From positions 62,001-126,000 of the forward strand of contig CAIRCN010000004.1 of NCBI GenBank assembly GCA_903877135.1: a DNA stretch of 64,000 nt, read 5' to 3'. The notes under the pieces were generated by a model that was given only the letters and a program-made list of their open reading frames with translations, was not told the DNA's origin and did no database searches. Position 1 is the stretch's first letter. The number at the start of each line of letters is the position of its first letter. The DNA is from an uncultured Opitutia bacterium. GTDB taxonomy: Bacteria > Verrucomicrobiota > Verrucomicrobiia > Opitutales > Opitutaceae. Below are positions 16,042-31,987 of the stretch, in pieces. Position numbers and translations under genes: made by a program.

Positions 16042-18948
16042 TTAAGGCAGTTCGTAAACTTCGACGAGGGCAACGCCGGTGGTGGCGTTTACGCCGTTGA
16101 CCGTAACGGTGTAGCTGCCGGCGGGCAGCGTGATAAGCAGGGCAGAGTCCTTGCTGCCTGCCGCGAGCGCGAAGGCGCCGGTCGTCTGGGCGGCGCTCGT
16201 GATCAGGGCCGCGTCGCCCGCGGTGCCCCAGTTGTCGTTTTGGTTGATGACCGTGCCATGGGAGTCGTTTAGATAGATGATCGGGTCGGCCAGCGTGCCG
16301 GTGACGCCGTAGTTCGCCAGGGTCGGGCCCACGCAGCGGATCAGCACGGTCTTGGCGGTGGCGCCGGTGATGACAAACCCGGGGATCATGACGCTGGCGC
16401 CAGTGCCGACGACGCCACGGGTGGAGATGTTCACCAGACGCGGCGAGGTGTTGTCGAGGGTGACGGTGGCGTCGTAGATTTCCACGATGCCCACGCCGGT
16501 GTTCGTGGCGCCGTTGCCGGAGAGGGTCGCCGTATAGGTGCCGGGGGCGAGGGTGGTGGAGATGACGGAGTCGAGCGAACCGGTGGGCAGGGCGAAGGCG
16601 CCGACCCGGGCCATGTCGGCAATGACGGTGGCGGGCGTGCCTGCGGTGGCCCAGTTGTCGTTTTGACTGACCACACTGCCGTTGCTCGTGAGCTGGAGCG
16701 TGAGCAGCGGGTCGGGCAGCGTGCCGGTGACCCCGTAGTTGGTCAGGGTCGGGCCGACACCGCGGATGATCACAGGCTTCGAGGCGGAGCCGGTGATGAC
16801 GAAGCCCGCGATCAGGACGTTGCCGCCGGTGCCGACCTGGCCGCGGGTCGAGAGGTTGACGAGGCGGCCGGGTGTGGTGGTCGCGAGCACAGTGAGCGTG
16901 GCGGCGGTGCTGGTCGTGAGGGCGGTGCCGTTGCTGATGGTGACGGTGTAGTTGCCGGCGTCGGTGGCCTGGGCGTTGGCGACGAGGAGGAAGGCGGCGG
17001 TGGCGCCGGGGAGGGCGACGCCGTCCTTGGCCCATTGGTAGGTCAGGCCATTGCCGGTAGCCGCGACGCTGAAGACCACGGTGGAGCCGGTGGCTATGGT
17101 TTGGGCCTGCGGTTGCGTGGTGATCGGCGGGCCGGCGTTGACGGTGATGGCAGCGACGGTGCCCCATTCCATCGGGTAGGTGCCGAAAAACAGTCCCCGC
17201 GCCTGCACGATGACGCTGCCGGTCGCGGCGGCGGTGTATGTCCCGCCGGTGCCGACCGGATTTATCGACGAACTTCCGGCGGTCGTGGTCTGCACGCCAG
17301 TTAGTGCGATGTTGTTGAGATACCAGCCAACGCCAGCGCTAGTCTGCGGGTAATACGATCCGGAGCCGGTGTTGGCGTAAGTGTAAGCGAAGCGGACGTG
17401 GAAGGTGCGCCCGGCATAAGCGGAGAGTGAAACCGTGCGGGTAGTGAAACTCGCCTCGCCCGCACCGTCGGTGCCGGTCTGCGCCATCACGTCGAACCAC
17501 GCCGTGCCATCGTCAAGCGCGAGTTGGACGTGGGCGGTCTGTTGGGCCGAGGCCCAGCCGAGCCGGCTTAGGAACGTCAGGCTCGCAGACGAGTTTGGCG
17601 CGTAAAAGGTTTCTGGGAGGGTGAGCGTTTGGATCGCAATGCTGGTGTCGGGCATCGCCAGATGGTAAGACGCCATGCCCGCGCCGACAGTGTCGGTGAC
17701 CACGGTGGGATAGTTTTCAGTGAGGGCGACGATACCGTTGAGGCCGCTCTCGGCGTTGTAGGATTTTGTGAAGGTGACAAACTGCAGGGAGCGAAATTCG
17801 TAGTAGCTCGCAAAGGCCGGGGCTGCCACTGTGTAGCTTGTCGCCTGACCCACAGAGAGCGTGGCGGGAATACTTACAGTGGTTTGCATATAGTCGCCAC
17901 CGGTCACGTCGGGATCGAAGACGGTGACATTGTAGGAAAAATTCTGCGTGGATGAGCCAATTTTCACGTTGTTCACGCTGACGGAGTAGATGGTGTCGGC
18001 AGTGGGCTTGGGATGCGGTGCGCCAGAAGAGGAGGGTAGACCGTCGTAAACCCACACGAAGGCGTTTTCGCCTGCGCCCGTGCTCACAACCTCGGGCGCT
18101 ACGGCGACACTCTGGCTGTTGCGCGTCATGGTCACCGAGGCGGCGGAAAAATCTGCGCCCGGATAGGAGAACGACCAGCGTGGCCACACGAGTTGATAAG
18201 GGACGTAGCCAGCGGGTGGGTAGGTGATCTGCGTGGTGCGGGTGGCGGGACGTGTGCCTCCGAACTGGTCGTCGACCACCCAAGTGACATTGGCAGGATA
18301 GAGAGTGGCAGTGCCAGGGACGTCGCCGGTGCCCATCTGCAGGGTCTGCGGATAATAGAGCCAGCGGCGGTGACCGACGGCGGCGTTGTTGGAGCCGCTG
18401 TCGGACATGTAGCCGGAAATGGCGTCGGGTCCCGCATAACCGATGGCGAGGTTGCTGTTGCCGGCGGCGGTGGCGCCGTCTGCGGTGTAGAATGTCCAGG
18501 TGTTTGGCGGAAAATGATTGAGAGCGTTGTTGGCGCTCATCATCAGCGCGGCTTGCTGGTCCTTCGTGCTGTAGGTCGAGTTCAACGTGATGGCGGCCGG
18601 CACGCCGACGAGCGCGCGGAAAAAATTAATACGGAGCCGCACAGCCTCCTTGAAGGCTGCGGAGGTGTCACCTGCCGCGACGATGGGATCGGTCGCGGTG
18701 TAGTTGCCGGTCCAGGCCATCGGGATGCCTTCGGAGGTATTGTAAATCGACCGGTAGAACTGCCGGACTTCTTCGCGAGCGGAAACGTTGACGCTGAGGG
18801 GTGGAGTGCTGACAGCGAGGGGATGGAGCGTGACCGCCAGTGCGTGCAAGCGGGCCACTTGCTCCGGCGTCGGCGCGACCGGCTGGGCGTGGAGGGAAAG
18901 CGTGGTGAGGGCGCAAAGCAGGGCCAGGACGCGTGGTGGGCGGCGCAT
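16042..18948 (-). CDS. Secreted CAP (SCP/PR1)-domain protein with Ig-like domain and two C-terminal tail modules
   Basis: 968 residues. An N-terminal signal peptide (RVLALLCALTTLSLHAQ) is followed by a CAP/SCP domain, with LRINFFRALVGVPAAITLN early, HFPPNTWTFYT in the middle and AAVGHRRWLYYPQ late. A central beta-rich region comes next, then an Ig-like domain (YQWAKDGVALPGA...DAGNYTVTISNG), and finally two copies of the tail module starting RLVNLSTRG and RLVNISTRG and ending VEIYD and VEVYELP. It is presumably secreted or held at the outer surface. There is no LPXTG or clear type IX signal. A GTG 21 bp upstream is an alternative start. The last about 1.1 kb is nearly identical to the neighbouring subtilase gene. 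Confidence 0.8.
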   Translation of the reverse strand: MRRPPRVLALLCALTTLSLHAQPVAPTPEQVARLHALAVTLHPLAVSTPPLSVNVSAREEVRQFYRSIYNTSEGIPMAWTGNYTATDPIVAAGDTSAAFKEAVRLRINFFRALVGVPAAITLNSTYSTKDQQAALMMSANNALNHFPPNTWTFYTADGATAAGNSNLAIGYAGPDAISGYMSDSGSNNAAVGHRRWLYYPQTLQMGTGDVPGTATLYPANVTWVVDDQFGGTRPATRTTQITYPPAGYVPYQLVWPRWSFSYPGADFSAASVTMTRNSQSVAVAPEVVSTGAGENAFVWVYDGLPSSSGAPHPKPTADTIYSVSVNNVKIGSSTQNFSYNVTVFDPDVTGGDYMQTTVSIPATLSVGQATSYTVAAPAFASYYEFRSLQFVTFTKSYNAESGLNGIVALTENYPTVVTDTVGAGMASYHLAMPDTSIAIQTLTLPETFYAPNSSASLTFLSRLGWASAQQTAHVQLALDDGTAWFDVMAQTGTDGAGEASFTTRTVSLSAYAGRTFHVRFAYTYANTGSGSYYPQTSAGVGWYLNNIALTGVQTTTAGSSSINPVGTGGTYTAAATGSVIVQARGLFFGTYPMEWGTVAAITVNAGPPITTQPQAQTIATGSTVVFSVAATGNGLTYQWAKDGVALPGATAAFLLVANAQATDAGNYTVTISNGTALTTSTAATLTVLATTTPGRLVNLSTRGQVGTGGNVLIAGFVITGSASKPVIIRGVGPTLTNYGVTGTLPDPLLTLQLTSNGSVVSQNDNWATAGTPATVIADMARVGAFALPTGSLDSVISTTLAPGTYTATLSGNGATNTGVGIVEIYDATVTLDNTSPRLVNISTRGVVGTGASVMIPGFVITGATAKTVLIRCVGPTLANYGVTGTLADPIIYLNDSHGTVINQNDNWGTAGDAALITSAAQTTGAFALAAGSKDSALLITLPAGSYTVTVNGVNATTGVALVEVYELP
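16045..17129 (-). repeat. Direct repeat, copy 1 (Ig-like domain plus two tail modules)
   Basis: About 1.1 kb that matches 19041-20129 closely, in the same orientation and about 3.0 kb away. The best-conserved part is roughly 16490-17060, where long runs are identical at the DNA level, including third-codon positions. Each copy encodes one Ig-like domain and two tail modules. Confidence 0.85.
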
Positions 18949-19037
18949 GGTAATCGCTGCACTGAACACCCTTTCATCCGGCCAGCAAGCGCGCCGGCAG
19001 TTTGCGATCTTGGTCGGCGGAGGTCGCGGACCTAGCC

Positions 19038-22000
19038 TCAGGGCAGCTCGTAAACTTCGACGAGGGCGACGCCGGTGGTGTTGTTGACGCCGCTGGCGGT
19101 GACGGTGTAGCGGCCGGGCTGGAGCGTGACGAGCAGAACGGAGTCTTTGCTGCCGGTCGTGAGTGCAAAGGCGCCCACTGCAGAGGAGGAGTTCACGATC
19201 TGGGTTGAATCGCCGGCCGAGCCCCAGTTGTCGTTTTGGTAGATGATATTTCCGTTGCCGTCGTTCAGGGTGATGGTCGGATCGGCCAGCGTGCCGGCGA
19301 CGCCATAGTTGGCCAACGTCGGGCCGACGCAGCGTATTAGCACGGTTTTGTCGGTGCTGCCGCTGATCACAAACCCGGGGATCATGACGTTGTTGCCGGT
19401 GCCGACGATGCCGCGGGTGGAGATGTTCACGAGGCGAGGCGAAGTGCTGTCGAGGGCGACGGTGTTGTCGTAGACTTCCACGAGACCGACGCCGGTGTTG
19501 GTGGCGCCGTTGCCAGAGAGGGTCGCCGTATAGACGCCGGGGGCGAGGGTGGTGGAGATGACGGAGTCGAGCGAACCGGTGGGCAACGCAAAGGCGCCGA
19601 CCCGGGCCATGTCGGCAATGACGGTGGCGGGCGTGCCCGCGGTGGCCCAGTTGTCGTTTTGCCCGACCACGCTGCCGTTGCTCGTGAGTTGGAGCGTGAG
19701 CAGCGGGTCGGGCAGGGTTCCGGTGACCCCGTAGTTGGCCAGGGTCGGGCCGACGCCGCGGATGATCACCGGCTTCGCCGCGGAGCCGGTGATGACGAAG
19801 CCCGCGATCAGGACGTTGCCGCCGGTGCCGACCTGGCCGCGAGTCGAGAGGTTGACGAGGCGGCCGGGCGTGGTGGTCACCAGCACGGTCAGCGCGGCGG
19901 CGCTGCTAGTGGTGAGAGCGGTGCCGTTGCTGACGGTGACGGTGTAGTTGCCGGCGTCGGCGGCTTGGGCATTGGAGAGCAGGAGGGAGGTGGCAGTGGC
20001 GCCGGCGAGGGCGACGCCGTCCTTGGCCCATTGGTAGGCGAGGCCGGTGCCGGTGGCCGCGACGCTGAACACGACGGTCGAGCCGGTGGCGATGGTCTGG
20101 GCCTGCGGCTGTGCGGTGATGGTCGGCGGGGTGGTGGAGACGGCGCGACCGAGCCGGCGGGGGTTGTGGCGATACATGGGCCAGGGCGTGGTGGCGGCGC
20201 CGACGCCGAGTTCGAAGGCGTAGAGTTTGTGGTCGTTGCTGCCGACGTAGAGTTTCGTGCCGGCGATGACGGGCGAGGAGCGGACCCAGTTGCCCATAGC
20301 GTAGGTGCGCTTGAGCGAGCCGTCGGGGTTGACGGCGTGGACCAGGTAGTCGTAGCCGCCGACGTAGATCACGCCGTTGGCGTCGATGGCGGGTGAACTG
20401 GCGCGTATTTCGTCGCCGAGAGGGTAGGTCCACTTCATGGTGCCGGTGGCGGTGTTGATGGCGTGGAGGTAGTGGTCGTAGGAGCCGATGTAGACGACGG
20501 AGCCGTCGACGTTGAGCGCGGGCGACGAGGAGATGCCGTTACCTGTGGCGTAGATCCAGCGTTGCGCGCCGCCGGGAGTGACGGAGAAGACGGTGTTGCT
20601 GAGCGTGCTAAAGTAGATGTTGCCGGCGGCGTCGATCGCGGGGGTGGAGTAGATCTGGTTGCCAGCGGGGAACATCCATTTCAGCGAGCCGGTGGACGTG
20701 ATGGCGTAGAGGTTGTTGTCGGTGGAGCCGATGTAGATCGTGCCATCGGGCGCGATCACAGGCGTGGAGTAGGAGGTGCTGCTGGTGTTGAAACGCCACT
20801 TCTGCGAACCGTCGGTGGAGTTGAGGGCGTAGAGGTTGTTGTCGGTGGACTGGATGTAGATCGTGCCATCGGGGGCGATGGCGGGGGAATTGGAGATGGA
20901 GGTGCTGAGGGCGGAGTTGGAGGGGGTGGGGACAGTGAAGGTCCATTTCAAGGTGCCGCTGGAGGTGAACGCGCGGACGATGCCGTCGTTCGAGCCGGTG
21001 TAGACGGTGCCGTCGTCGGCGATGGCGGGCGAGCAGGTGTCGATGAAGCCGCCGGTGGCGTAGCTCCATTTCTGGGTGCCGTTGGCGTTGAAGGCGTAGA
21101 ATGAGCTGTCGACGCTGCCGACGTAGATGCTGCCGTCGGGCGCGACGGCGGGTGCACCGGTGATGGCGTCGGTCGCGGTGGCCTGCCAGAGCGAATCGAC
21201 GAGCGAGAGGGTGAAGGTGCCCGGGACGCTGGTGTTGGTCGAATCGACGGTGATGGCGTAGGTGGTGCCGGCGTTGGCGTTGATGGTGCAGAGGGCGTTG
21301 CTCGAGCCTGTGCTGCCGTTGGCGCTGACGAGCGTGAGCGCGGTGAGGGAACTGCCGGTGTAAACGGCGAGCAGCGGGTTGATCTGGTCGCTGTAGGCCG
21401 CGATCTGGAACTGGCCGGTGCGCGGCGCCGTCCAGCTATACCAGAGCGAGAGACCGCCGGCGTTGCCGAGGATGCGGGGCTCGCCGGTTTCGCGGCTGCA
21501 ATGCGCGTTGGTTGCAGTTACGAGCGCGCTCTGGCCGGTGAGCGTGACGGGCGAGGCGAAGGCGTCATTGGCGGGCACGGTGCCGATGTTGAGAAGCGCG
21601 AGGCCGGTCGCGCCGGCCTTGCCGTCGACGGCGATTTCGTAATTCACGCCGGCCTGAGCGGTGAAGGTCACGCGACTGGTGGCGACACCAACGGTGTCGT
21701 CGTTGGAGGCGACAGAGGTGAGGTTATTGACGGCGGTGCCGGTGTAAACCGCGAGCAGAGTGTTGAAGGTGCTGCCGCTGGTGTCGATCGTCACCGAGCC
21801 GCTGGCCGGCGCGGTCCATTCCCACCAGAGCGAAGTGCCGCCGGCGATACCGGCGTGGAGGGGCTCGCCGACTTCGGGGGTGGCACCCATGTTGGAGGCG
21901 CGGGCGGCGATGTTGGCGCCGGAGATGCGGGCGCGGGTGGCGAAGTCGTCGTTGAAAGGGCGGTTGTCGGTCGAGGTGAGCGCCTTCGCGAGGTTGAGGC

Positions 22001-23330
22001 GGCCGCCAGTCTGGCACTTGCCGGCAAATTTGGCGCCGGGATCGACGCTGCGGAGGAGGCGGTTGATGAGCTGGTGGTAGTTGTCGGTGGGAAACTTCGC
22101 CTTGAGCAGAGCGAGCGCACCGGCGACGTGCGGGGCGGCCATCGAGGTGCCGCTTTTCAGCACATAGGTGATATCGGTGGTGTAGTCGAGCGAGAGGATG
22201 TTTTCACCGGGGGCGAAGAGCTCGACGGCGCCGGAGCCGTAGTTGGAAAAAGTAGAAATCTCGTCGCGGTTGGTGGAACTGCCGACGGCGATGATGTTGT
22301 CGAGAGGGAAACTCGCGGGATACTCTCGGATGACATCCATGTTAAGTGTGCTGTTGCCGGCGGCGGCGACGAAGATGATTCCGGCGTCGCGGGCGCGGGT
22401 GATGGCGGAGAGCTCAGACTGGGAAAAGGTGCTGCTGCCAGTGGTGTCGCCGAAGCTGCCGTTGATGATCTGGGCGCCGTTGGCGATGGCGTAGTCGAAG
22501 CACTCGACCTCGTTGGAGACGGAACCGTTGCCGGTGCTGTCGAGGAATTTGAGCGCCATGATTTGCACGCGCCAGGCGACGCCGCTTATGCCGCGGCCGT
22601 TGTTGCCGACGGCGCCGATGATGCCGGCGACGTGCGAGCCGTGGCCGAGGTCATCGTTGGGCAGGTAGTAGCTGGCACTGGAGGCATTGCTGATGATGGA
22701 GTTGATGCCGTGAGTGCCGGTGGAACTCGTCCAGAGATTGGCGACGATGTCCTCGTGAGTGGCGTGGATGCCGGAGTCGATGACGGCAACGATGACATTG
22801 GAGGCATCGTTCAGGCCACCTAGTTGCGTGTCCCAAGCAGTCTCGGCCTTGATGTCGGCGCCGGCGATGCCGGCGCCCGGGCCGTTGGAGCCGGTGTTGG
22901 CGAGCGGCCACTGGTCGGTGCTGAAGCGCGGGTCGTTGGGCACGACGGAGGCGGTGCGGACGTAGTCGGGCTCGACGAATTCGTAACGGCCGGTGGCCTT
23001 GAGGCGGGAGAGCGCGGTGGCGAGCGTGTCTGTGACGGCGAGATCGACGATGCGGAGGGCCCCGAAGCGGGCGAATTGGTGCCGCACGCGAACGCCTTCG
23101 CGGACCTCGGCAGCGTCGACCGTGGCAAGGGCGGCGGTCCGCGGTTTCGCGAGAATGACGCCGTCGCGGTAGCCTTGGGTGATCTCTTTCGCCGTGAGCG
23201 AGACCGCGCGGTTGACGAGGCTCACGGCGGCGGCGTGACCGAGCGAGGTCAGCAGCAGCCACACGGCGAGGAGGCGGAGGAGAGGCGTCTTCAAGCGGGA
23301 GAAAGTTAACCGGTCGGTGAGTGCAGACAA
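19038..23330 (-). CDS. Secreted subtilisin-like serine protease with PPC-like, PQQ-type beta-propeller, Ig-like and tail modules
   Basis: 1430 residues from a TTG. The signal peptide includes LLRLLAVWLLLTSLGHAAA. An inhibitor-like propeptide precedes an S8 catalytic domain with Asp185 (AVIDSGIHATHED), His230 (GHGSHVAG), Asn326 (AAGN) and Ser396 (GTSMAAPHVAG). All are intact, so it should be active. Two beta-sandwich repeats (each NDxFA...SLWxxWTAP...LAVYTG) follow, then a propeller of about seven blades (GSIYVGS...YAF...GTQKWSY type), one Ig-like domain, and two tail modules. It is probably an exported protease that binds polymers or the cell surface. A second TTG at 23291 is an alternative start. 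The start overlaps the end of the helicase gene by 25 bp. Confidence 0.88.
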   Translation of the reverse strand: MSALTDRLTFSRLKTPLLRLLAVWLLLTSLGHAAAVSLVNRAVSLTAKEITQGYRDGVILAKPRTAALATVDAAEVREGVRVRHQFARFGALRIVDLAVTDTLATALSRLKATGRYEFVEPDYVRTASVVPNDPRFSTDQWPLANTGSNGPGAGIAGADIKAETAWDTQLGGLNDASNVIVAVIDSGIHATHEDIVANLWTSSTGTHGINSIISNASSASYYLPNDDLGHGSHVAGIIGAVGNNGRGISGVAWRVQIMALKFLDSTGNGSVSNEVECFDYAIANGAQIINGSFGDTTGSSTFSQSELSAITRARDAGIIFVAAAGNSTLNMDVIREYPASFPLDNIIAVGSSTNRDEISTFSNYGSGAVELFAPGENILSLDYTTDITYVLKSGTSMAAPHVAGALALLKAKFPTDNYHQLINRLLRSVDPGAKFAGKCQTGGRLNLAKALTSTDNRPFNDDFATRARISGANIAARASNMGATPEVGEPLHAGIAGGTSLWWEWTAPASGSVTIDTSGSTFNTLLAVYTGTAVNNLTSVASNDDTVGVATSRVTFTAQAGVNYEIAVDGKAGATGLALLNIGTVPANDAFASPVTLTGQSALVTATNAHCSRETGEPRILGNAGGLSLWYSWTAPRTGQFQIAAYSDQINPLLAVYTGSSLTALTLVSANGSTGSSNALCTINANAGTTYAITVDSTNTSVPGTFTLSLVDSLWQATATDAITGAPAVAPDGSIYVGSVDSSFYAFNANGTQKWSYATGGFIDTCSPAIADDGTVYTGSNDGIVRAFTSSGTLKWTFTVPTPSNSALSTSISNSPAIAPDGTIYIQSTDNNLYALNSTDGSQKWRFNTSSTSYSTPVIAPDGTIYIGSTDNNLYAITSTGSLKWMFPAGNQIYSTPAIDAAGNIYFSTLSNTVFSVTPGGAQRWIYATGNGISSSPALNVDGSVVYIGSYDHYLHAINTATGTMKWTYPLGDEIRASSPAIDANGVIYVGGYDYLVHAVNPDGSLKRTYAMGNWVRSSPVIAGTKLYVGSNDHKLYAFELGVGAATTPWPMYRHNPRRLGRAVSTTPPTITAQPQAQTIATGSTVVFSVAATGTGLAYQWAKDGVALAGATATSLLLSNAQAADAGNYTVTVSNGTALTTSSAAALTVLVTTTPGRLVNLSTRGQVGTGGNVLIAGFVITGSAAKPVIIRGVGPTLANYGVTGTLPDPLLTLQLTSNGSVVGQNDNWATAGTPATVIADMARVGAFALPTGSLDSVISTTLAPGVYTATLSGNGATNTGVGLVEVYDNTVALDSTSPRLVNISTRGIVGTGNNVMIPGFVISGSTDKTVLIRCVGPTLANYGVAGTLADPTITLNDGNGNIIYQNDNWGSAGDSTQIVNSSSAVGAFALTTGSKDSVLLVTLQPGRYTVTASGVNNTTGVALVEVYELP
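19041..20129 (-). repeat. Direct repeat, copy 2 (Ig-like domain plus two tail modules)
   Basis: Partner of the block at 16045-17129, same orientation. The near-identity extends over silent positions, which points to recent duplication or ongoing gene conversion. Recombination between the copies would delete about 3 kb and leave a subtilase carrying the other gene's tail. Confidence 0.85.
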
Positions 23331-25906
23331 GCGCCGGGCGAAAAAGTGGCGGGATCTTGGGCGAGCCAGCGCGCGAGGTCGTCGTCGTCGAGTAGGTTGG
23401 TCCCGGTCTGGTAATCGGGCGCGAGGAGACTGGCGTAACTCGGCTCGAGGAAGCGACGACAGTGGAGGATGACCCGGGCGCGCTGGCCGGGGGCGCGGAC
23501 GAGGCGGCCGAGGGCCTGGTTCACCTTGGTCATGCCGGGGATTTGGTAGACCCGGCGGAACGCTTCCTCGCGGGTGAGTCCGGCGCGGGCGGCCTCGGCG
23601 AGGCGGGCGCGCTGGACGGCGTTGACCTCGGGGAGCGCGGGCCCGACGACCATCGCGTGAGTGACGCGGCCGCCGAGGGCGTCGATGCTCTCGGCAAAGC
23701 TGGAGCCGAGGACGAGGAAGAGCGCGTCGGCGGCGAGGAGTGAATCGCCGACCCAGGCGGATTGCGCGGCGAGGTCGCGGAGCTTGGGTTGGAGGGCGAC
23801 GCGGAGCGCGGGGGTGTTGGCGGCGAGTTCACCGCGGATGGCCTCGGCATAGGCGTAGCTGGGGAAGAACACCGCGACGCTGCGCGTCGCGGTGTTCAGT
23901 TGAGAGTTGAGGGTTGAGAGTTGAGAGACCGAAGAAGGTGCGGCGTGCAGGGAGGCGACGGTGGCGGCGGTGGCGGTGTAATGGTGCGAGCGGTGCTGGA
24001 ATGTCGTGTCGATGCGGGCGTCGAAGGCGATGTCGTAGGCGCTATCGCGCCACGGGGTGGCGGCGCGCAGAAGCGTGGGACTAGAGGCGGTGCGAGCCTC
24101 CTCGACGCGGAGCAGTTCGGCGGCATTGGTGAGCTGGCGGTAGAGTTTTTTGGTGGCACGCTTGGTGAGTGCGCCAAGGCGTTCGGGGGCTGGCGGTGGC
24201 GGAGTTGGTGGTGAATCGGGCGGCGCATCGAGCCCGCAGGCGACGGCGAAACCGTCCACGGGTGTGAGGGTGGCACTGGCGAGCACGACGCCGCCGAACT
24301 CGCGCAGCGTGGCACCGATGGCGGAGGCGGCGTCGAGGCAGGTGAGGTTGAGTTCGCTGTCGCGCGGACACCACCAGAGGCGCGGCAGCTCGGTGGCGGT
24401 GAGTTCGTCGGCGAGCGAGGGGAGTTGCCAGAGGAGGTCGGCGGCCTGCGGGCCGAGGGCGGCGAGGTCGAGCGGGGTCGTGGCGATGAGGTCGGCGAGG
24501 ATGGTGAGGAGGTGGCGGGCGTCGTCTTCGGCGGCGAGGGACAGCGCGGCGCAGGCGCGCAGGTGGTGGAGGAAGTGGCACCAGTGGTCCCAGGCGGAGA
24601 CGAGCGTGGCGAGCGCGCGGAGGCGGTGGAGTTCGTTGCGCACGGCGAAGGCGTCGGCGGCGGTGAGGGTGTGCGAGTAGGCGTCGGCGACGCGGGAGGG
24701 GAGGTTGTGGGCCTCGTCGAGGAGGAGGAGTGTGCGCTCGGGTGCGAAGCCAGGCTGCTCGAAGAACAGGCCGCGGTTGCGCGGGGCGAAGACGTAGTTA
24801 TAGTCGCCGATCCAGACATCGTTGAACGCGAGGGCGGCGCGGGTGATTTCGTAGGGGCAGATGCGCGCGGCGCGGCCGGCGGCGCGGAGGATGTCGAGGT
24901 CGCGTGCGTGTTTTTCGTCGAGATAAAAACGGGCGAGTCCGCTTTGCGGCCAGCGCTCAGCGGCGCCGTCGAGGTAGGCGCAGCTGTCGCGGACGCAGTG
25001 AAAAGTGGTGTTGACGCAGTGCTCGGATTTGTTGCGGACGTGCCAGGCGGCGACGGGAGTGCCGCCATCCGCGGCTATGGTCATCGACTGCAGGGTGCGG
25101 ACGACCTGGAGCTGGCCGGTGGACTTGCTGGTGAGGTAGAGCGCGAGGTCGAAGTTGCCGGAGCGCAGCTGGCCGAGAGCGAATTCGAGGAGCACGCCGG
25201 TTTTGCCGAAGCCGGTCGGTGCCTCGAAGAGCACGAGCGGGTGGCGTTCGAATAGCGCGGTGAGCGCAGTCTCCGTCGTCTCCTGACCGGCGCGGAGCGT
25301 GGCGAACGGTGGTCGGAAGGCGAGGTGGCGCAGCCGCTCGCGAGCGCGCAGCCGGAGGTTGAGAAACTGGGCCACGCGCTCGAGTTGCACGCGGAAAAAA
25401 GCGTCGTCCGACGGCGTGAGCGTGATGGTCTGCGCGAGGCCGCTGCCGGCTTCGACAAAGATGAGCTCGGAGCGCAACGGTTGCTCGGTGGGGTTCGGCG
25501 ACACCGCCCTACAGAGGCGCCGCTGCAACACGGTATAGGTGGAGAGCTGGCCGAAGTAGCCGGGATAGGCGGCGCGGAGTTCGGTTTCGTCGGCGGGAAG
25601 CGGGCGGGTGACAGTCTTGATCTCGCGCAACGTAATCATGCCATCCGTGCGGAGGAGCTGGTCGATGCGGCCGGCGAGTGCGATGGTCCAACCTTGATGG
25701 AAAATCTGGCCCGCGATCGGCACTTCGAACTGGGCGTCGGGGGTGTCGGTGGTGGCTTGGGCTCGGAGTTCGTTGTGCCAGTGCGTGCCGAGTTGGGCGC
25801 GCCAAAGGCCGCCGGCGCCGCTGCCGCCTTCTCGCGGCCCGGTCGAAAAATCCGCGAACTCGCCGACGCTCAGGCTGGCAGTGCGTTGATCGAGGGAGAA
25901 ATCCAT
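23306..25906 (-). CDS. Fused PD-(D/E)XK (Cas4/RecB-like) nuclease and XPD/DinG-like Fe-S helicase
   Basis: 866 residues. The N-terminal part has the nuclease triad: Asp82 in AGRIDQLL, Glu95-x-Lys97 in TLREIKTV, and the QxxxY motif in GQLSTYTVLQ (Gln120, Tyr124). From about residue 200 comes a superfamily 2 helicase: Walker A APTGFGKTG (Lys235), DEAH box LLLLDEAHNLPSR (397-400) and a C-terminal motif VI QALGRLVRAPGQRAR. Four cysteines (297, 304, 309, 350; the last in ICPYEITRAAL) lie where XPD/DinG enzymes bind a 4Fe-4S cluster. It probably unwinds and trims DNA during repair. ATG 25906 is chosen over an upstream start in low-complexity sequence. A repetitive insertion sits at residues about 660-672. 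Confidence 0.87.
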   Translation of the reverse strand: MDFSLDQRTASLSVGEFADFSTGPREGGSGAGGLWRAQLGTHWHNELRAQATTDTPDAQFEVPIAGQIFHQGWTIALAGRIDQLLRTDGMITLREIKTVTRPLPADETELRAAYPGYFGQLSTYTVLQRRLCRAVSPNPTEQPLRSELIFVEAGSGLAQTITLTPSDDAFFRVQLERVAQFLNLRLRARERLRHLAFRPPFATLRAGQETTETALTALFERHPLVLFEAPTGFGKTGVLLEFALGQLRSGNFDLALYLTSKSTGQLQVVRTLQSMTIAADGGTPVAAWHVRNKSEHCVNTTFHCVRDSCAYLDGAAERWPQSGLARFYLDEKHARDLDILRAAGRAARICPYEITRAALAFNDVWIGDYNYVFAPRNRGLFFEQPGFAPERTLLLLDEAHNLPSRVADAYSHTLTAADAFAVRNELHRLRALATLVSAWDHWCHFLHHLRACAALSLAAEDDARHLLTILADLIATTPLDLAALGPQAADLLWQLPSLADELTATELPRLWWCPRDSELNLTCLDAASAIGATLREFGGVVLASATLTPVDGFAVACGLDAPPDSPPTPPPPAPERLGALTKRATKKLYRQLTNAAELLRVEEARTASSPTLLRAATPWRDSAYDIAFDARIDTTFQHRSHHYTATAATVASLHAAPSSVSQLSTLNSQLNTATRSVAVFFPSYAYAEAIRGELAANTPALRVALQPKLRDLAAQSAWVGDSLLAADALFLVLGSSFAESIDALGGRVTHAMVVGPALPEVNAVQRARLAEAARAGLTREEAFRRVYQIPGMTKVNQALGRLVRAPGQRARVILHCRRFLEPSYASLLAPDYQTGTNLLDDDDLARWLAQDPATFSPGACLHSPTG
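23895..23928. repeat. TTGAGAG-type filler repeat inside the helicase gene
   Basis: A 34-bp run of GTTGAGAG/GTTGAGGG words, four units long, lying in frame. On the coding strand it gives SVSQLSTLNSQLNTA between helicase domains. It looks like intergenic spacer DNA rather than protein-coding sequence, yet keeps the frame. Confidence 0.75.
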
Positions 25907-25974
25907 GGGCGCGAAGAAGAGGGAAGTGTGAAGAGTGAGGGGGCGGAATCTTGTCACTCATCACTTGTTACTGG
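25907..25974. repeat. Short-word intergenic filler between recO and the helicase gene
   Basis: The gap holds repeated words of the type GAAGTGTGAAGAGTGAGG (25923-25940) and TCACTCATCACTTGTTACTGG (from 25954). The words are alternating TCACT/AGTGA units. It resembles 27887-27918 and is not protein-coding. No promoter is evident. Confidence 0.5.
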
Positions 25975-26598
25975 TCACTCCAACAAAATTTCTGTGTGGC
26001 CGCGGAGGTAGTCGGCGAGGAAGAGGCCGAGGCGGGCGACGATCTTAGCCGCGGCGGTTTGCTCGGCGAGCGGGCGGTTGAGGAGCGTGGCCACGTCCTC
26101 ACGTTCTGCGACGGAGAGTGTCGGGAACCACTGCTGTTTCACCGGGTAGCCTTCGTCGCGGGCGAAGCAGTAGAGGCTCTTAAACCACACGATGTCGGGG
26201 CGGGCGCCGGTTGCGAGGGAGGCGAGCGCCTGGCGCAGCAGGGCGGCGACGGCGGCGCGGCTTTCCTCGTGGACGGGGTTGCGCGCGATGAGCCGGGCGA
26301 GGTCGGAGGCGGCGGTGAGAGATTCGTAACTGCGACCGAGGCCGGGGTGACGGGTGAGGAGGCGGGTCTCCTTCACAAACCACGTCTGACCCAGATTCGA
26401 ACTTTCAAGCTGGAGGGAAACTTCATCGAAGAGGTCGAATGTGACGGCGGTGGTCGAGGAGGCGGCTTTTTTTGTGAGACGCTGGACGACGAGCAGGGAG
26501 CCGTGCTCGGCGGAGAAGAGCGTGAAGCTCTGAAACGAGTCTGATGGGGGCCGCCGCGCCAGCACGAATGCGTCGGTTTCAAGCGGGAGGCCGGGCAT
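25975..26598 (-). CDS. recO: DNA repair protein RecO-like
   Basis: 207 residues. The N terminus (LETDAFVLARRPPSDSFQSFTLFSAEHGSLLVVQRLTKK) follows the RecO OB-fold pattern. The remainder is a helical domain with LARLIARN, LRQALASLATG and LFLADYLRGH, as in RecO C-terminal domains. Overall similarity is modest, the protein is shorter than E. coli RecO (242 residues), and no zinc-binding cysteines are present. RecO loads RecA onto SSB-coated single-stranded DNA. It precedes the helicase-nuclease gene in the same direction. Confidence 0.65.
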   Translation of the reverse strand: MPGLPLETDAFVLARRPPSDSFQSFTLFSAEHGSLLVVQRLTKKAASSTTAVTFDLFDEVSLQLESSNLGQTWFVKETRLLTRHPGLGRSYESLTAASDLARLIARNPVHEESRAAVAALLRQALASLATGARPDIVWFKSLYCFARDEGYPVKQQWFPTLSVAEREDVATLLNRPLAEQTAAAKIVARLGLFLADYLRGHTEILLE

Positions 26599-26652
26599 GG
26601 GGCGGGCGGGCGTTCGCCGGGCGGGCGGTGCCGGTGGCGCGGTCGCGGAAGA

Positions 26653-27336
26653 TTACGGTTTGATGAGGGTGGCGGGAATTTTCGCGCCAGGCCAGTGCGG
26701 CACCACGCCGCCGCCGGAGATGATCATCTTCATCCCGTCGCCGACGGACATGTTGAGTTCGCGGATCTTGGATTTCGGGAGCATGATAAGGAAGCCGCTG
26801 GTGGGGTTGGGCGTCGTGGGCACGAAGACCGTCCAAATTTCCTCCGCGACGTGGGCCTGCGGTTCGCCAGAGAGTTTGTTGGTGAGGAAACCGAGCGTCC
26901 ACATACCTTCACGGGGGAACTCGACCAGCACGACCTTGCTGAAGAGGTTGCGGTTCTGTGTGCTGAAGGTGTCGACGATCTGCTTGACGGTGTTATAAAC
27001 GGGGCCGACGCCGGGGATGCCCTGCATGATGCGTTCGCCGACCTCGAGGAAGTATTTGCCGAAGACGTAGCGCGAGAGCCAGCCGATCAGCGTGACAAGC
27101 GCAAGGACCGCGAGGGTCGTGAGAAAATCCCAGAGAAATGGGACGCGCTGCAACGATTGTGGCAGGTAGTCTTCGAAGAGTGGCCGGAAGGTGCCGCCGA
27201 TGAGATCGATGATCTTGCTGAACGCCCAGATGGTGACAACGAGCGGCGCGAGCAGGAGCAAACCGGAAAAGAACGCGGTGCGCAGGGTGACGATGGAGGA
27301 GGAGGAATTGTCGCCGGACATGGCAGGCGAGGACAT
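26653..27336 (-). CDS. DUF502 family membrane protein
   Basis: 227 residues with two strong membrane helices near the N terminus (FFSGLLLLAPLVVTIWAFSKII and FLTTLAVLALVTLIGWLSRY, each about 20 residues). A conserved cytoplasmic-looking region follows: GIPGVGPVYNTVKQIVDTF, VLVEFPREGMWTLGFLT, VFVPTTPNPTSGFLIMLP. These are hallmark DUF502 motifs. The biochemical role of the family is unknown. An ATG at 27321 is an alternative start. It lies between ybeY and recO in a leftward run. Confidence 0.88.
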   Translation of the reverse strand: MSSPAMSGDNSSSSIVTLRTAFFSGLLLLAPLVVTIWAFSKIIDLIGGTFRPLFEDYLPQSLQRVPFLWDFLTTLAVLALVTLIGWLSRYVFGKYFLEVGERIMQGIPGVGPVYNTVKQIVDTFSTQNRNLFSKVVLVEFPREGMWTLGFLTNKLSGEPQAHVAEEIWTVFVPTTPNPTSGFLIMLPKSKIRELNMSVGDGMKMIISGGGVVPHWPGAKIPATLIKP

Positions 27337-27401
27337 AGCGCAGGCCCCGGGCAAAAGGCACGGAAAAACGGGGCGTCGGATGAGACAAGGGCCCGGTGCG
27401 G

Positions 27402-27875
27402 TCAGGTCAGCTTGAAACGGGGCAGGCTATCAGAGACGGCAAGCAGGCGCACTGCGCGGGCCTCGGCGCGGCGAATGGCGCGCTTTTTCGTGGGCTGCAG
27501 ATCGTCGTAGCCAGCGAGATGCAGCCAGCCGTGGACGACGTAGAGCAGAAGTTCGGAGGAGAAGTCGCGTCCGTTTTTTTTTGCGTAAGCGGCAGCAGTG
27601 TCGGCGGAGACGCAGATTTCACCGGCGGTGCCGAGAATGGGGTCACCCTCGAAGGTGATGACGTCGGTGGGTGTTGGTTCGTCGAGGAAGTCGGCGTGGA
27701 GTTGGGCCAAGGCGGTGTCGGTCAGGAAGACGAGCGAGATCTCACCGGGAGGAACCGGCGAGATTTTGGATTTTGCGAACTCGGAATCGAGGACGTGTAT
27801 CGCGCGGGTGAGGGCGCGGCGGTCGAGGCGCAGGCGCGGATGGCGGTTGGCAATGGCGACGGCGCGGGCGGGCAT
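27402..27875 (-). CDS. ybeY: Endoribonuclease YbeY (16S rRNA maturation / ribosome quality control)
   Basis: 157 residues ending with the zinc-site motif HGWLHLAGYDD. The central part has SLVFLTDTALAQLHADFLDEPTPTDVITF, typical of YbeY. The third metal ligand is Asp instead of the commoner His (YDD rather than YDH), a substitution allowed in the family pattern. YbeY processes 16S rRNA ends and removes defective 70S ribosomes. It lies close to phoH, as in many bacteria (ybeZ-ybeY), separated here by a VOC gene. Confidence 0.92.
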   Translation of the reverse strand: MPARAVAIANRHPRLRLDRRALTRAIHVLDSEFAKSKISPVPPGEISLVFLTDTALAQLHADFLDEPTPTDVITFEGDPILGTAGEICVSADTAAAYAKKNGRDFSSELLLYVVHGWLHLAGYDDLQPTKKRAIRRAEARAVRLLAVSDSLPRFKLT

Positions 27876-27886
27876 TGGGGCAAGAG

Positions 27887-27918
27887 TGAAGTGTGAAATG
27901 TGAGAGTGATGAGAGGAG
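27887..27918. repeat. AGTGA-word filler between the VOC gene and ybeY
   Basis: AAGAGTGAAGTGTGAAATGTGAGAGTGATGAG-like sequence built from GTGA/GAGTG words, located immediately before ybeY. It is similar in word content to the spacer at 25907-25974. Confidence 0.45.
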
Positions 27919-27919
27919 A

Positions 27920-28330
27920 CTAGGGGTGCTGGGAAACGGAGAGGACGTTGCCGTCGGGGTCCTTGAACCAGGCGACGCGCGCGCCACCGGGGGCGGTCCA
28001 GATACCATGCGCATCTTGGGCCATGCCGGGATAGCGCTCGAAGGCGACGCCGCGCGCGGCCAGGACGGAAACCGCCTGCGACGCGTCGGGCACCTGCCAG
28101 CCGAGGATCGTGTAGGGGGCGGACTGAAAGGCGCCGACTTTGACGACGCGGATCATCGTGCCGCCGCTTTCGAAGACCAAGGCGAAGTCATCCGTGGCCG
28201 TGAGGTGCAGGCTGAGCACGCCCTCGTAGAAAGCCCTCGCCTGAGCGAAGTCCTTCGTGGGAATGAAGCCGATGACTGAGTTTGTGCCGAGCACCGCCGG
28301 TATCAGCGAATTCTGCCGAGAGATACTCAC
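27920..28330 (-). CDS. VOC-superfamily (glyoxalase/bleomycin-resistance fold) protein
   Basis: 136 residues with one VOC domain: IGFIPTKDFAQARAFYEGVLSL at the N terminus and GGARVAWFKDPDGNVLSV at the C terminus, the two most conserved features of the fold. The GTG start overlaps the phoH stop as GTGA, so translation is probably coupled. The family includes glyoxalases, dioxygenases and drug-binding proteins. Metal ligands are not clearly complete, so no reaction can be assigned. Confidence 0.85.
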   Translation of the reverse strand: MSISRQNSLIPAVLGTNSVIGFIPTKDFAQARAFYEGVLSLHLTATDDFALVFESGGTMIRVVKVGAFQSAPYTILGWQVPDASQAVSVLAARGVAFERYPGMAQDAHGIWTAPGGARVAWFKDPDGNVLSVSQHP

Positions 28331-29391
28331 CGTTTTTCCTCTGTGCCGTTTTCGGCAGCGATGGGGTTGCGGTAGATGTCGTAGGCTTCGATGATTTTTT
28401 GGACGAGCGGGTGGCGGACGACATCGGCGGCGCTGAAGGTGTGGAAATCGATGCCGGGGATGTCGCTCAAGATGTGGCGGACTTCGAGGAGGCCGCTGTG
28501 CTTCGCGCGGCGGAGGTCGATCTGCGTGATGTCGCCGGTGACGACCATGCGCGAGTCTTCGCCGAGGCGGGTGAGGAACATCATCATCTGCTCGGAAGTG
28601 GAGTTTTGCGCCTCGTCGAGGATGATGTAGGCGCGGGAGAGAGTGCGGCCGCGCATGTAGGCGAGCGGTGCGATCTCGATGACGCCTTTCTCGGTGAGGC
28701 GGGCGATGTCCTCGGCGTCGAGCATGTCGTGGAGGGCGTCGTAGAGCGGGCGGAGGTAGGGGAGAATTTTCTCGCGGAGGTCGCCGGGGAGGAAGCCGAG
28801 GGTTTCGCCGGCCTCGACGGCGGGGCGCGTGAGGATGAGGCGCTCGACCTCGTTCTTGAGGAGGGCGGAGACGGCGGCGGCCATCGCGAGGTAGGTCTTG
28901 CCGGTGCCGGCGGGGCCGATGCCGAAGACGACCGGGTGCGCGAGCATCGACTGGAGGTAGAGTTTCTGGCCGAGGGTTTTCGGGACGATGGTCTTGCGGT
29001 TGGTGGCGATGACGAGGGGTTCGTCGATGAGGGCGCGAATCTGGTCGCCTTCGCCGCGGGCAAAGCCGTCGGTGATGCGATGGAAGTCGGGCGTGCGGAT
29101 CGTCATGCCCTGGTTGCGGGCGGCGTCGAGGAAGGTGAAGAGGGCTTCCGCCGCCGCGAGGGCGGTGGGGGATTTTGGAATTGGGATTTTGGAGTTTGGA
29201 TTGGCGGGATCGGGGACGGTGTCGGGGGTCTCAATCTTCAGCCAGTCGTCGCGGGAGGTGAGTTTGACGCCGAGCATGCGTTCGGCGTGGGCAAGGTTTT
29301 CCTCGTGGCCCGCGTAGAGCGCGTGGAGGTGGCGGGCGGAGGGGAAATGGAGGGTTTGGGAGGGCAAGGCGGGGCGCTTACCGTTTGGCAT
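28327..29391 (-). CDS. phoH: PhoH-like ATPase (YbeZ type)
   Basis: 354 residues. An N-terminal region (FPSARHLHALYAGHEENLAHAERMLGVKL) resembles the YbeZ N terminus. The ATPase follows: Walker A GPAGTGKTYLAM, then LTRPAVEAGETLGFLPGD, Walker B AYIILDEAQNSTSEQM, and MVVTGDITQIDLR. PhoH proteins are RNA-associated ATPases, often partnered with YbeY in rRNA processing. ATG 29391 overlaps the HIT gene by 14 bp. Between the two regions, residues about 63-73 (NSKIPIPKSPT) come from an AT-rich filler stretch on the DNA. Confidence 0.9.
   Translation of the reverse strand: MPNGKRPALPSQTLHFPSARHLHALYAGHEENLAHAERMLGVKLTSRDDWLKIETPDTVPDPANPNSKIPIPKSPTALAAAEALFTFLDAARNQGMTIRTPDFHRITDGFARGEGDQIRALIDEPLVIATNRKTIVPKTLGQKLYLQSMLAHPVVFGIGPAGTGKTYLAMAAAVSALLKNEVERLILTRPAVEAGETLGFLPGDLREKILPYLRPLYDALHDMLDAEDIARLTEKGVIEIAPLAYMRGRTLSRAYIILDEAQNSTSEQMMMFLTRLGEDSRMVVTGDITQIDLRRAKHSGLLEVRHILSDIPGIDFHTFSAADVVRHPLVQKIIEAYDIYRNPIAAENGTEEKR
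29171..29204. repeat. GGATTTTGG-type filler inside phoH
   Basis: 34 bp of GATTTTGGAATTGGGATTTT-like words, in frame between the N-terminal and ATPase parts of PhoH. The base composition is sharply different from the flanking GC-rich codons. Confidence 0.7.
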
Positions 29392-29878
29392 CCAGGTTCG
29401 GCACCACCGCAGCGAGACGCTCCCAGGTGTCGTCGAGGGATTGCGGGAGGATGCGGGTGTGGCCGAGAACGGGCATGAAGTTGTGGTCGCCGGTCCAGCG
29501 GGGGACGATGTGGCCGTGGAGGTGAGCGATACTGCCGCCGGCGGCGGTGCCAAGGTTGAAGCCGATGTTAAAGCCGTCGGGTTTGAGGGCGGCGGTGAGG
29601 AGGCGTTGGGCGAAGACGATTTCCTCCATGAGGTCGGCGCACTCGGCGGGGGTGAGTTCCTCGAACTGGACGACCTCGCGGAAGGGGACGGCGAGGAGGT
29701 GGCCGGGGTTGTAGGGAAAAATGTTGAGGATGAGGTAGGCGTGGACACCGCGGTGGACGATGCGCGCGGCGCGGTCGTTGCCAAGGAGGGGCAACTCGGT
29801 GAACGGGCGCTTCATCTCGGGCGGATGCCGGGGCGCCTCGATGTATTCCATGCGCCAGTAAGGGTGGAGCTGCTGCAT
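29378..29878 (-). CDS. HIT-family hydrolase/nucleotide-binding protein (FHIT/AP4A-phosphorylase-like)
   Basis: 166 residues with the histidine-triad motif IAHLHGHIVPRW, preceded by LNIFPYNPGHLLAVPFREV and LNLGTAAGGS, as in Fhit-like hydrolases. These enzymes cleave or transfer nucleoside phosphates such as Ap4A or ADP-linked compounds. ATG 29878 gives the N terminus MQQLHPYWRMEYIEAP, which matches the bacterial family; upstream sequence is antisense to the symporter leader. First gene of the phoH-VOC-ybeY-DUF502-recO run. Confidence 0.88.
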   Translation of the reverse strand: MQQLHPYWRMEYIEAPRHPPEMKRPFTELPLLGNDRAARIVHRGVHAYLILNIFPYNPGHLLAVPFREVVQFEELTPAECADLMEEIVFAQRLLTAALKPDGFNIGFNLGTAAGGSIAHLHGHIVPRWTGDHNFMPVLGHTRILPQSLDDTWERLAAVVPNLDAKR

Positions 29879-30028
29879 GTTCAAGAGATGTGGAGCCAAA
29901 CCTGCCTCGGCCGGAAAGTCAAAGACGCACCGACGCACGAGGTTTGCCTGCGATTTCTCTCGCGGCCCTTCCCGCTCACGCCAAATAAATCGCCGCGTTC
30001 ATCCTCCATCGGTCACCCCACTATCATC
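29879..30028. promoter_or_regulatory. Divergent promoter region between HIT and symporter genes
   Basis: A 150-bp gap between two diverging starts. No reliable -35/-10 pair, operator or Shine-Dalgarno sequence could be recognised, apart from somewhat higher AT content around 29930-29995. Confidence 0.3.
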
Positions 30029-31987
30029 ATGCACGCGCTCGCGACTGTCGATTACGTCATCATCCTCGGTTATCTGATCTTGAGCCTGATCGCCGGCGTG
30101 ATCATGACAAAACGGGCGGGATTGAGCCTGGAGCATTATTTTCTCGGCGGGCGCACGCTGCCGTGGTGGGTGCTGGGCGTGGCGGGCATGGCGAACTGGT
30201 TCGATCTCACAGGGACGATGATGATCACGTCGTTCCTGTATATGCTCGGGCCTCGCGGGCTCTATGTGGAGTTTCGTGGCGGCGCCGGCATCGTGCTGAT
30301 CTTCATGCTGGCCTACACCGGGAAATGGCACCGGCGCTCCGGTTGCATGACGGGGGCGGAATGGATGACCTATCGGTTCGGGGATGGAAAGGCCGCCGAG
30401 GGCGTGCGGGCGATGTCCGCGCTCGCTGGCATCTTGATCACGGTCATGATGCTCGCGTATCTCATCCGGGGCGCGAGTTTGTTTCTCGGCCTTTTCTTCC
30501 CGTTTCCGGCAATGTATACGACGCTCGTCGTCGTCACCGTCTCGACCCTGTTTACGATGAGCGCGGGATTCTACGGCGTGGTGCTGACCGACCTGGTGCA
30601 GGGCGTGATCATTTTGACAGCGAGCGTGATCATCGCCTTCATGGCCTGGCATCTGGTGCCAAGCATGAGCAGCCTTGCGGCCACGGCGCAGGCCGTCACG
30701 GGCAACGCCGACTGGACCAACTCGCAGCCCGCCTGGCACACGCAGATGCCCGCCGGCTACGAGCCCTATTCGATGCTGATCATGGTCGCGTCATTCTACC
30801 TGCTGCGAAACATCCTTGGAGGGGCCGGAACTGGCGCCGACTCGCGCTACTTCGGCGCAAAGAGCGATCGCGACTGCGGGCTGCAATCCTTCCAGCAGGG
30901 GGTGATGCTGATGTTCCGCTGGCCGCTGATGATCGGCTTTGCGGTGATGGGCATTTACCTCGTGCACAGCCTTTATCCCGACCCAGCCGTCATCAAGCAG
31001 GCGGCGGACCTGATCCACACCCAATATCCTGCCACCACCGCACCGTTTTGGCATGATCTCACCGGGAGCATTATGACCTCGCCAGGGAGTCATCCGGCGG
31101 CCTTCGTCGCCCAACTTCGGGCCCTGCTGGGCCCGGATTGGCAGGGCAAACTCGCGCTGGTCGGCTACCATGGCACGGTCAACCCGGAGCAGATTCTCCC
31201 CGCCGTGCTGCTAAACATGGTGCCCACCGGACTGAAAGGACTGATCGTCGTGGCGATGTTCGCCGCGATGATGTCGTGCAAAAACGGCCTGATGAACGGC
31301 GCGAGCGCCTTATTCGTGAAGGACATCTACCAGAATTTTTTCCGTCCGCGGGCGGCTAATCGCGAGCTCATCATCACCTCCTACGCCTCCACACTCGGGA
31401 TTGTCATTCTAGGTTTCTACTTTGGCGTGGTGGCGACGAGCATCAACACCCTCTGGGGTTGGATCGTCATGAGTCTCACGGCGGGGCAGATCGGGCCGCA
31501 AGTCCTGCGTCTCTATTGGTGGCGCTGCAATGCCTGGGGCATGATCGGCGGCACGGTGCTGGGGATTCTGGGCGCAGTCGGGCAGCGGCTCTATTTTCCC
31601 GAGATGACCGAGCCGACACAGTTGGTGGTGATGACGGCCATCTCGGTCTTCGGTACCATCGCGGGCTCGCTCCTCACGGCGCCGACCTCCCGCGAGATTT
31701 TGGTTAACTTTTACCGGACGACGCGACCATTCGGCTGGTGGGGTTCGCTGCGCGGCGAATTCCAAGGAGCCGAACGGGCGGCCATCGATCTGGAGAACCG
31801 CAATGACATCATCACGCTGCCCTTTGCCCTACTCTGGTTGATCACGATGCTTCTGCTGCCGATGCAGTTGGTGATTCAATCCTACGCGACCTTCTTCCGC
31901 ACCCTGCCGCTGTTCCTGGTCGCTCTAGTCGGCATGTATTTTTTCTGGTGGAAACCGCTGATGAAAAAAGGACCAGCGACGCCATAG
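30029..31987 (+). CDS. Sodium:solute symporter family protein
   Basis: 652 residues with about 13-15 hydrophobic helices. The N terminus shows VDYVIILGYLILSLIAGV, then the SSS-family GLSLEHYFLGGRTLPWW and AGMANWFDLTGTMM, with further helices such as MFAAMMSCKNGLMNGASALFVKDIYQ. This is the LeuT-fold sodium/solute symporter family (sugars, amino acids, sialic acid and others). The solute cannot be determined. It is a stand-alone gene that converges on ruvB with a 31-bp gap. The ATG at 30029 is the first start consistent with the helix pattern. Confidence 0.88.
   Translation: MHALATVDYVIILGYLILSLIAGVIMTKRAGLSLEHYFLGGRTLPWWVLGVAGMANWFDLTGTMMITSFLYMLGPRGLYVEFRGGAGIVLIFMLAYTGKWHRRSGCMTGAEWMTYRFGDGKAAEGVRAMSALAGILITVMMLAYLIRGASLFLGLFFPFPAMYTTLVVVTVSTLFTMSAGFYGVVLTDLVQGVIILTASVIIAFMAWHLVPSMSSLAATAQAVTGNADWTNSQPAWHTQMPAGYEPYSMLIMVASFYLLRNILGGAGTGADSRYFGAKSDRDCGLQSFQQGVMLMFRWPLMIGFAVMGIYLVHSLYPDPAVIKQAADLIHTQYPATTAPFWHDLTGSIMTSPGSHPAAFVAQLRALLGPDWQGKLALVGYHGTVNPEQILPAVLLNMVPTGLKGLIVVAMFAAMMSCKNGLMNGASALFVKDIYQNFFRPRAANRELIITSYASTLGIVILGFYFGVVATSINTLWGWIVMSLTAGQIGPQVLRLYWWRCNAWGMIGGTVLGILGAVGQRLYFPEMTEPTQLVVMTAISVFGTIAGSLLTAPTSREILVNFYRTTRPFGWWGSLRGEFQGAERAAIDLENRNDIITLPFALLWLITMLLLPMQLVIQSYATFFRTLPLFLVALVGMYFFWWKPLMKKGPATP

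Follow-up and report, generated by a model that had tools for sequence, protein, structure and literature searches.

The gene analysed here lies on the minus strand at positions 23306..25906 of a 64,000-nucleotide window from an uncultured Opitutia bacterium of the family Opitutaceae (contig CAIRCN010000004.1), the window being the whole stretch of DNA under study. We almost certainly recognize its product as an EndoDinG, a protein in which a PD-(D/E)XK nuclease lies N-terminal to an XPD/DinG-type helicase. Starting at an ATG, the frame stays open for 866 codons and gives a protein of 866 amino acids, with an in-frame GTG at 25957 as a second possible start; start codons of relatives were picked to fit the start of the window protein. 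An initial annotation, made from the letters alone, had placed nuclease and helicase on a single chain, and the open reading frame (ORF), Pfam, AlphaFold and structure searches all agree with it. Pfam identifies PDDEXK_1 at residues 43-190, barely above threshold (23.5 bits against a cut-off of 22), DEAD_2 at residues 290-416 (47.7 bits against 21), and Helicase_C_2 at residues 672-828 (66.4 bits against 25.3). No UvrD domain was found in the protein by Pfam at E-values up to 0.1, and its NCBIfam matches all fell under the curated cut-offs. For the full-length protein, AlphaFold gives a mean predicted local distance difference test (pLDDT) of 89.8 and a predicted template modelling score (pTM) of 0.90, while the nuclease domain modelled alone reaches a pLDDT of 95.0.

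The nuclease domain occupies about residues 1-193 (25328..25906, on the minus strand like all features of this gene), as judged from PDDEXK_1, the domain model, and structure matches. Its active-site stretch (25535..25777) holds exactly the residues first proposed, Asp82, Glu95, Lys97 and a QxxxY motif (Q120/Y124), and the site is completed by H44 and E61. The proposal of an XPD/DinG-like helicase with four iron-sulphur (Fe-S) cysteines is likewise confirmed by motif I (Walker A, residues 229-236, 25199..25222), motif II (DEAH, residues 397-400, 24707..24718), motif VI (QALGRLVR, residues 797-804, 23495..23518), and an Fe-S domain at about residues 290-355 (24842..25039) with C297, C304, C309, and C350. 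Judged from these motifs, the protein probably both unwinds and cuts DNA. A heptamer-repeat insert of the CTCAACT type also lies in frame at residues 658-675 (23882..23935) and varies among relatives: similar STLNSQ-type inserts occupy the equivalent position in L035 and L072, L031 carries such an insert elsewhere, near residue 280, and other relatives are without one. A 19-base repeat pattern, allowing at most one mismatch, finds only one further site in the window's genome.

The nuclease-DinG architecture was named EndoDinG in section 3.7 of a 2025 review (PMC11981726), so the window protein is a member of a known family and the fusion is not new. The review describes a single chain with an N-terminal PD-(D/E)XK nuclease bearing the residues H/E/D/E/K, an MD1/MD2 motor, and a conserved CCCC Fe-S motif, takes the protein of Bdellovibrio bacteriovorus HD100 as type member, and cites unpublished data that the Bdellovibrio protein is an endonuclease (PMC11981726). 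In the window protein these residues follow in the EndoDinG order (H44, E61, D82, E95, K97), the DinG-like MD1 and MD2 are represented by DEAD_2 and Helicase_C_2, with structure in agreement, and the CCCC motif is present in the four cysteines listed above. A truncated Arch domain is a further mark of the subgroup. In two loci from contigs with Bdellovibrionales in their titles, L127 and L149, the alignment covers all of the required profile range. Unlike the EndoDinG of the review, the window protein is longer, with a stretch at ~562-612 common to many Opitutaceae relatives, and has the repeat insert; EndoDinGs of the Opitutales further differ in usually lying behind recO and, among some relatives, in having lost the Fe-S cysteines.

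The family has a solved member, PDB 9kqh, titled 'Crystal structure of Finegoldia magna DinG in complex with ssDNA and ADPNP' and released on 2025-12-03. It was the top structure both by Foldseek and by VIA-align, the latter giving Z 26.4 over 711 residues with a root-mean-square deviation of 5.6, and positions 7-762 of a 41-sequence profile matched residues 2-746 of the 9kqh chain (E 4.6e-93). Profile and structure thus align the two proteins from end to end, although the Finegoldia protein is shorter (748 against 866 amino acids) and only 22% identical over the structurally aligned residues. Chain A of 9kqh, as deposited, has Ala at the equivalent of D82, an otherwise invariant Asp, and is perhaps an engineered catalytic mutant. 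The search for further members of the fusion, suggested at the outset, returned a named family, a solved structure, and an alignment of 111 rows including the window protein. XPD/Rad3, canonical DinG, and YoaA share the motor and Fe-S domain but are without a nuclease domain. ExoDinG, the DinG of Staphylococcus aureus, likewise carries a nuclease N-terminal on the DinG motor, one of the DEDD kind. It is described as a 3'-5' exonuclease (PMC12345164).

Structural matches to the nuclease domain alone are led by 9kqh (Z 15.5), SSO0001, which we take to be a Cas4 (Z 13.0), and a Cas4/Cas1/Cas2 complex (Z 12.7), followed by human MGME1 (Z 12.4), E. coli RecE (Z 11.4), EXO5 (Z 10.5), and AddAB chain A (Z 10.3). 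The nuclease domains of Cas4, MGME1, RecE, EXO5, and AddA share the RecB-kind PD-(D/E)XK fold of the window protein, and none of them is known to be fused to an XPD-type motor. The initial label of Cas4/RecB-like accordingly stands for the fold and fails for the Fe-S cluster: Cas4 has Fe-S cysteines in its nuclease domain, whereas residues 1-205 of the window protein hold one cysteine only (C132), from which we conclude that its nuclease is without a Cas4/DNA2-type cluster. DNA2 also joins nuclease (Z 8.1) and helicase in a single chain, but its motor is a superfamily 1 (SF1) helicase and its Fe-S cluster sits in the nuclease, while the window protein has an XPD/DinG-type SF2 motor; the comparison with DNA2, drawn earlier as a likeness in principle with another helicase class, was apt. 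The nuclease domain also matches, at about Z 8, some cap-snatching nucleases of viruses, some herpesvirus exonucleases, and eIF3d, which we take as shared fold only.

Relatives were collected from 57 related genomes and from 80 named contigs, the best 80 of 408 confirmed relatives. Of 120 matched loci, 114 passed a coverage filter, the other 6 rows being partial; removal of 4 duplicates and addition of the window protein gave the 111 rows, among which near-copies remain (e.g. L104-L106). Of the 37 genomes in the family, including the one the window comes from, 36 have an EndoDinG match, the sole miss (G012) being a 67% complete genome; overall, 47 of the 57 related genomes have one. All seven nuclease residues (H44, E61, D82, E95, K97, Q120, and Y124) are the same in every one of the 111 rows. 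The reservation attached to the initial annotation, that the N-terminal part might match no PD-(D/E)XK profile or that its residues might not be conserved, is removed by this identity and by the PDDEXK_1 score, narrowly as the latter clears its threshold. Nine additional plasmid-collection records, found by tblastn, likewise keep all seven (9/9), with variation confined in our comparison to helicase motifs (GKS and DEVH in Legionella, DEVH in Listeria, and a Thr-to-Ser change in one Enterococcus); one Cupriavidus copy (L161) ends early through a broken frame.

These counts bear on whether the nuclease or the helicase half could be a silent relic, the protein working only through the other half. 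Part of the helicase can evidently be given up, as 13 of the 111 rows are without the Fe-S cysteines. Yet alongside the nuclease residues, 15 tested helicase positions are identical in every row, and although the search of named contigs was built on two helicase motifs, so that the conservation of Walker A and DEAH owes something to how the rows were selected, the nuclease residues played no part in locating the loci. A relic in either half is consequently exceedingly improbable.

Beyond these rows, 103 of 143 sampled Gammaproteobacteria genomes match a Microbulbifer protein; only G057, G058, G074, G119, and G166 match from near the N-terminus, as judged by eye, and the others look like ordinary DinG/YoaA helicases. 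Full-length EndoDinG genes also occur in two contigs titled Lokiarchaeia (L115, L118), which are metagenome bins, so that contamination is possible. A pattern scan of viral_contigs with the window protein alone, which reaches close relatives only, confirmed no relative. In a phage collection 16 records match at <60% identity; those listed are unannotated and named Listeria phage, Enterococcus phage or 'Bacteriophage sp.', and may be host DNA.

The Fe-S cysteines vary among the same rows. The four-cysteine pattern is present in 89 of the 111 rows, some with shifted spacing, while the first cysteine is missing from 9 and all four from 13; the list of three-cysteine rows was drawn up by eye, and L061 and L099 bear one more cysteine at another place in the stretch, as L107 bears a stray one. 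Each of the 22 departures falls within 74 rows that belong to the window's order or to contigs titled Opitutae, Opitutia, Opitutales, Puniceicoccaceae or Verrucomicrobia(-ota). The 13 rows without any of the four cysteines are all from Verrucomicrobiota and keep the nuclease and ATPase motifs, with 7 of them forming one tight clade with near-copies. Each of the nine three-cysteine rows has a histidine two residues ahead of the next cysteine, which might stand in as a ligand of the cluster. On a quick tree of 53 rows chosen from the 111, with the Fe-S columns excluded, the cysteine-free state needs 4 changes, only 1 of them forced by well-supported branches, and repeated loss is for this reason likely rather than proven.

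A YoaA/DinG paralogue was sought in four genomes with cysteine-free EndoDinGs; three have one with its four cysteines kept, and a YoaA match was absent from the fourth (G054). In those three genomes the loss is therefore particular to EndoDinG, and an organism-wide loss of Fe-S proteins is ruled out as its cause. The review lists cluster-free domains only for other DinG subgroups and expects the EndoDinG cluster to be critical and to modulate the nuclease (PMC11981726). EndoDinGs without the cysteines do not appear in the sections of the review that we consulted (PMC11981726), and we made no dedicated literature search for them. The conservation pattern suggests that selection on the nuclease, whatever its cause, does not depend on the cluster, and these natural variants allow the need of an XPD-family helicase for its cluster to be tested within a nuclease fusion.

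Upstream of the EndoDinG gene, and on the same strand, lie recO at a distance of 68 bp (25975..26598, assigned by a weak profile match and synteny), a gene for a DUF502 protein (26653..27354, Pfam PF04367 and synteny), ybeY (27402..27875, Pfam PF02130, TIGR00043, and synteny), and phoH (28327..29784, start uncertain, Pfam PF02562 at residues 266-469 and synteny). The same-strand run is thus phoH, a small VOC-like ORF, ybeY, DUF502, recO, and EndoDinG as the last gene, the VOC label being our own. Of 40 related loci, 27 have recO upstream in the same orientation at no more than 1.1 kb (23 of them at no more than 350 bp), another has it at a distance of 1.7 kb, and one has it inverted, so that in the Opitutales EndoDinG is usually found behind recO in a phoH-ybeY-DUF502-recO locus. 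Only the small VOC-like ORF occupies the window between ybeY and phoH (27875-28327); the corresponding gap in L035, L040, and L046 is ~2.5-3 kb and has room for a large gene, presumably PgpH-like.

The initial annotation had taken the neighbouring recO to favour repair over defence, and this judgement gains from other repair contexts in which the family is found. FAN1 adjoins EndoDinG in 4 of the 37 genome loci outside the Opitutae set (L131, L138, L143, and L144), identified by the Pfam domains VRR_NUC and FAN1_HTH in three and by tblastn in the fourth, and in one Burkholderia record of the nine from the plasmid collection. A protein combining a DnaQ-like exonuclease with GIY-YIG stands beside EndoDinG in a further 5 of the 37 (L126, L127, L130, L148, and L150); GIY-YIG is over its cut-off in all five and RNase_T under its cut-off in L130 and L150. 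On three Legionella plasmids (L151, L164, and L165) the DnaQ-GIY-YIG gene overlaps EndoDinG by 8 bp, and each has umuD and a Y-family polymerase nearby, within what appears as a repair island with variable genes for dinB (2/3), Ku (2/3), LigD (1/3), UdgX (1/3), and an SOS-response peptidase (2/3). No report of these neighbour associations was found in the open-access papers searched, and neither FAN1 nor the Opitutales are mentioned in the main text of the review (PMC11981726). The EndoDinG of Pseudomonas aeruginosa is, we assume, PA1866. Both PA1866 and PA1865, the crosslink-unhooking nuclease FAN1, are listed as UV-C responsive, outside known damage regulons, in the available text of PMC12796719.

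A contrary possibility is that EndoDinG is a defence enzyme that degrades phage or plasmid DNA, by analogy with the DinG of type IV CRISPR systems, DdmD, and Hna. The PADLOC model PDLC01439 (typeIV_DinG) does match residues 197-828 (E 4.4e-56), and structures of CasDinG, DdmD, and Hna are present lower in the fold lists. However, the same model gives 189 bits to the window EndoDinG, 385 to the YoaA/DinG-like protein of the same genome, and 501 to a Listeria EndoDinG, and a label on which both outscore the window protein is unspecific. CasDinG is marked by type IV cas genes or a CRISPR array nearby, and the window locus offers neither: of eight window proteins around the gene, compared with PADLOC at E-values up to 1e-5, seven matched no model and one matched a generic subtilase, with no cas gene, and no CRISPR-like direct repeats were found in window positions 10000-40000. 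The gene is also retained, next to housekeeping genes, by most of the order. We consider defence very unlikely, and repair the likelier of the two roles with considerable confidence. Defence scans with PDLC01439 may mislabel EndoDinG and YoaA/DinG-like helicases.

A second alternative keeps the protein in repair and casts it as an end-resection machine in the manner of DNA2 or AddAB, unwinding and degrading processively from broken ends. The pairing of a helicase with a RecB-type nuclease is the same in principle, the nuclease fold matches AddAB, RecB, AdnA, and Dna2 chains, and the gene adjoins recO. AddAB itself, in which a UvrD-like helicase and nuclease are spread over two subunits, is not matched by the window protein, and the window's genome already has an AddA-like gene (1065 aa, UvrD and PDDEXK_1) and an AddB-like gene truncated at the edge of the examined stretch, as well as a separate YoaA/DinG-like gene of 711 aa; VRR_NUC, the FAN1 domain, gave no match in this genome. 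The AddA-, AddB-, and YoaA-like names rest on best match and domains, since the NCBIfam scores are under the curated cut-offs. With these genes present, replacement of AddAB or DinG by EndoDinG was rejected, and we regard EndoDinG as an extra activity and no substitute. The same pattern extends to other genomes, as 43 of the 47 that bear EndoDinG possess a further open frame of at least 900 aa that matches PDDEXK_1 (judged by eye and by size only), the exceptions being G039, G043, G044, and G054, so that no sign of replacement appears. The activity reported in the review, from unpublished data, is moreover endo- and not exonucleolytic (PMC11981726). End resection is in our estimation unlikely, though less remote than defence.

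We therefore favour a single-chain nuclease-helicase of the EndoDinG family that probably serves DNA repair. Its recurring neighbours, FAN1, DnaQ-GIY-YIG nucleases, translesion polymerases, and RecO, suggest blocked forks, flaps, and crosslinks as the setting, and we give an even chance to endonucleolytic clearing at blocking lesions as its specific task. By analogy with the XPD/DinG family, the motor would move 5'-3' on single-stranded DNA at the expense of ATP, and at a fork, flap or gap its Fe-S/Arch side would separate the strands; the N-terminal nuclease could then cut the displaced or threaded strand near the obstacle as an endonuclease, and the resulting gap or tail might serve RecFOR/RecA or a polymerase. 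Judged from the neighbours, the substrates would be strand-blocking damage such as crosslinks, bulky adducts, and stalled forks, with FAN1 or a DnaQ-GIY-YIG nuclease as putative partners in some lineages. More tentatively, EndoDinG could be the motor of a lesion-clearing pathway with nucleases interchangeable by lineage (some Proteobacteria using FAN1, several other lineages DnaQ-GIY-YIG, and the Opitutales a RecO-linked form), in which the Fe-S cluster is a dispensable add-on in several Opitutae lineages; we put this broader scheme at somewhat below an even prospect. A published cellular function for EndoDinG was not found in the open-access papers searched, and for a little-studied family present in many bacterial groups the neighbour patterns name concrete partner candidates.

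Several observations weigh against lesion repair as the role. The product of the window's recO matches RecO_N under the curated cut-off (23.3 bits against 27; TIGR00613 at E 0.087), and recO was undetected by tblastn in the examined stretch of 11 of the 40 related loci, a search that may miss some of so fast-changing a protein. A scan of positions 23200-30100 found a single sigma-70 site, at 30023-30051, where 0.4 were expected, and terminator-like sites at chance level, so that an operon is not shown. In other lineages, neither FAN1 nor DnaQ-GIY-YIG lies in the examined stretch of 28 of the 37 loci outside the Opitutae set or of 5 of the 9 plasmid-collection records, and the EndoDinGs of Listeria and Enterococcus lie among transport and other unrelated genes. 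PA1866 is placed outside the known LexA regulon in the available text of PMC12796719, where the name DinG is given to another, LexA-controlled gene, PA1045. The sole statement of activity for EndoDinG is the 'unpublished data' of the review (PMC11981726). Finally, it fits poorly with a cluster essential for unwinding that 13 rows have lost the Fe-S cysteines.

On the other side of the EndoDinG gene, also on the minus strand, the window encodes a CAP-domain protein (16042-18969) and a subtilase with a PQQ-type propeller (19038-23330). By eye, the two share a very similar C-terminal region of ~360 residues that begins with an immunoglobulin (Ig)-like domain.

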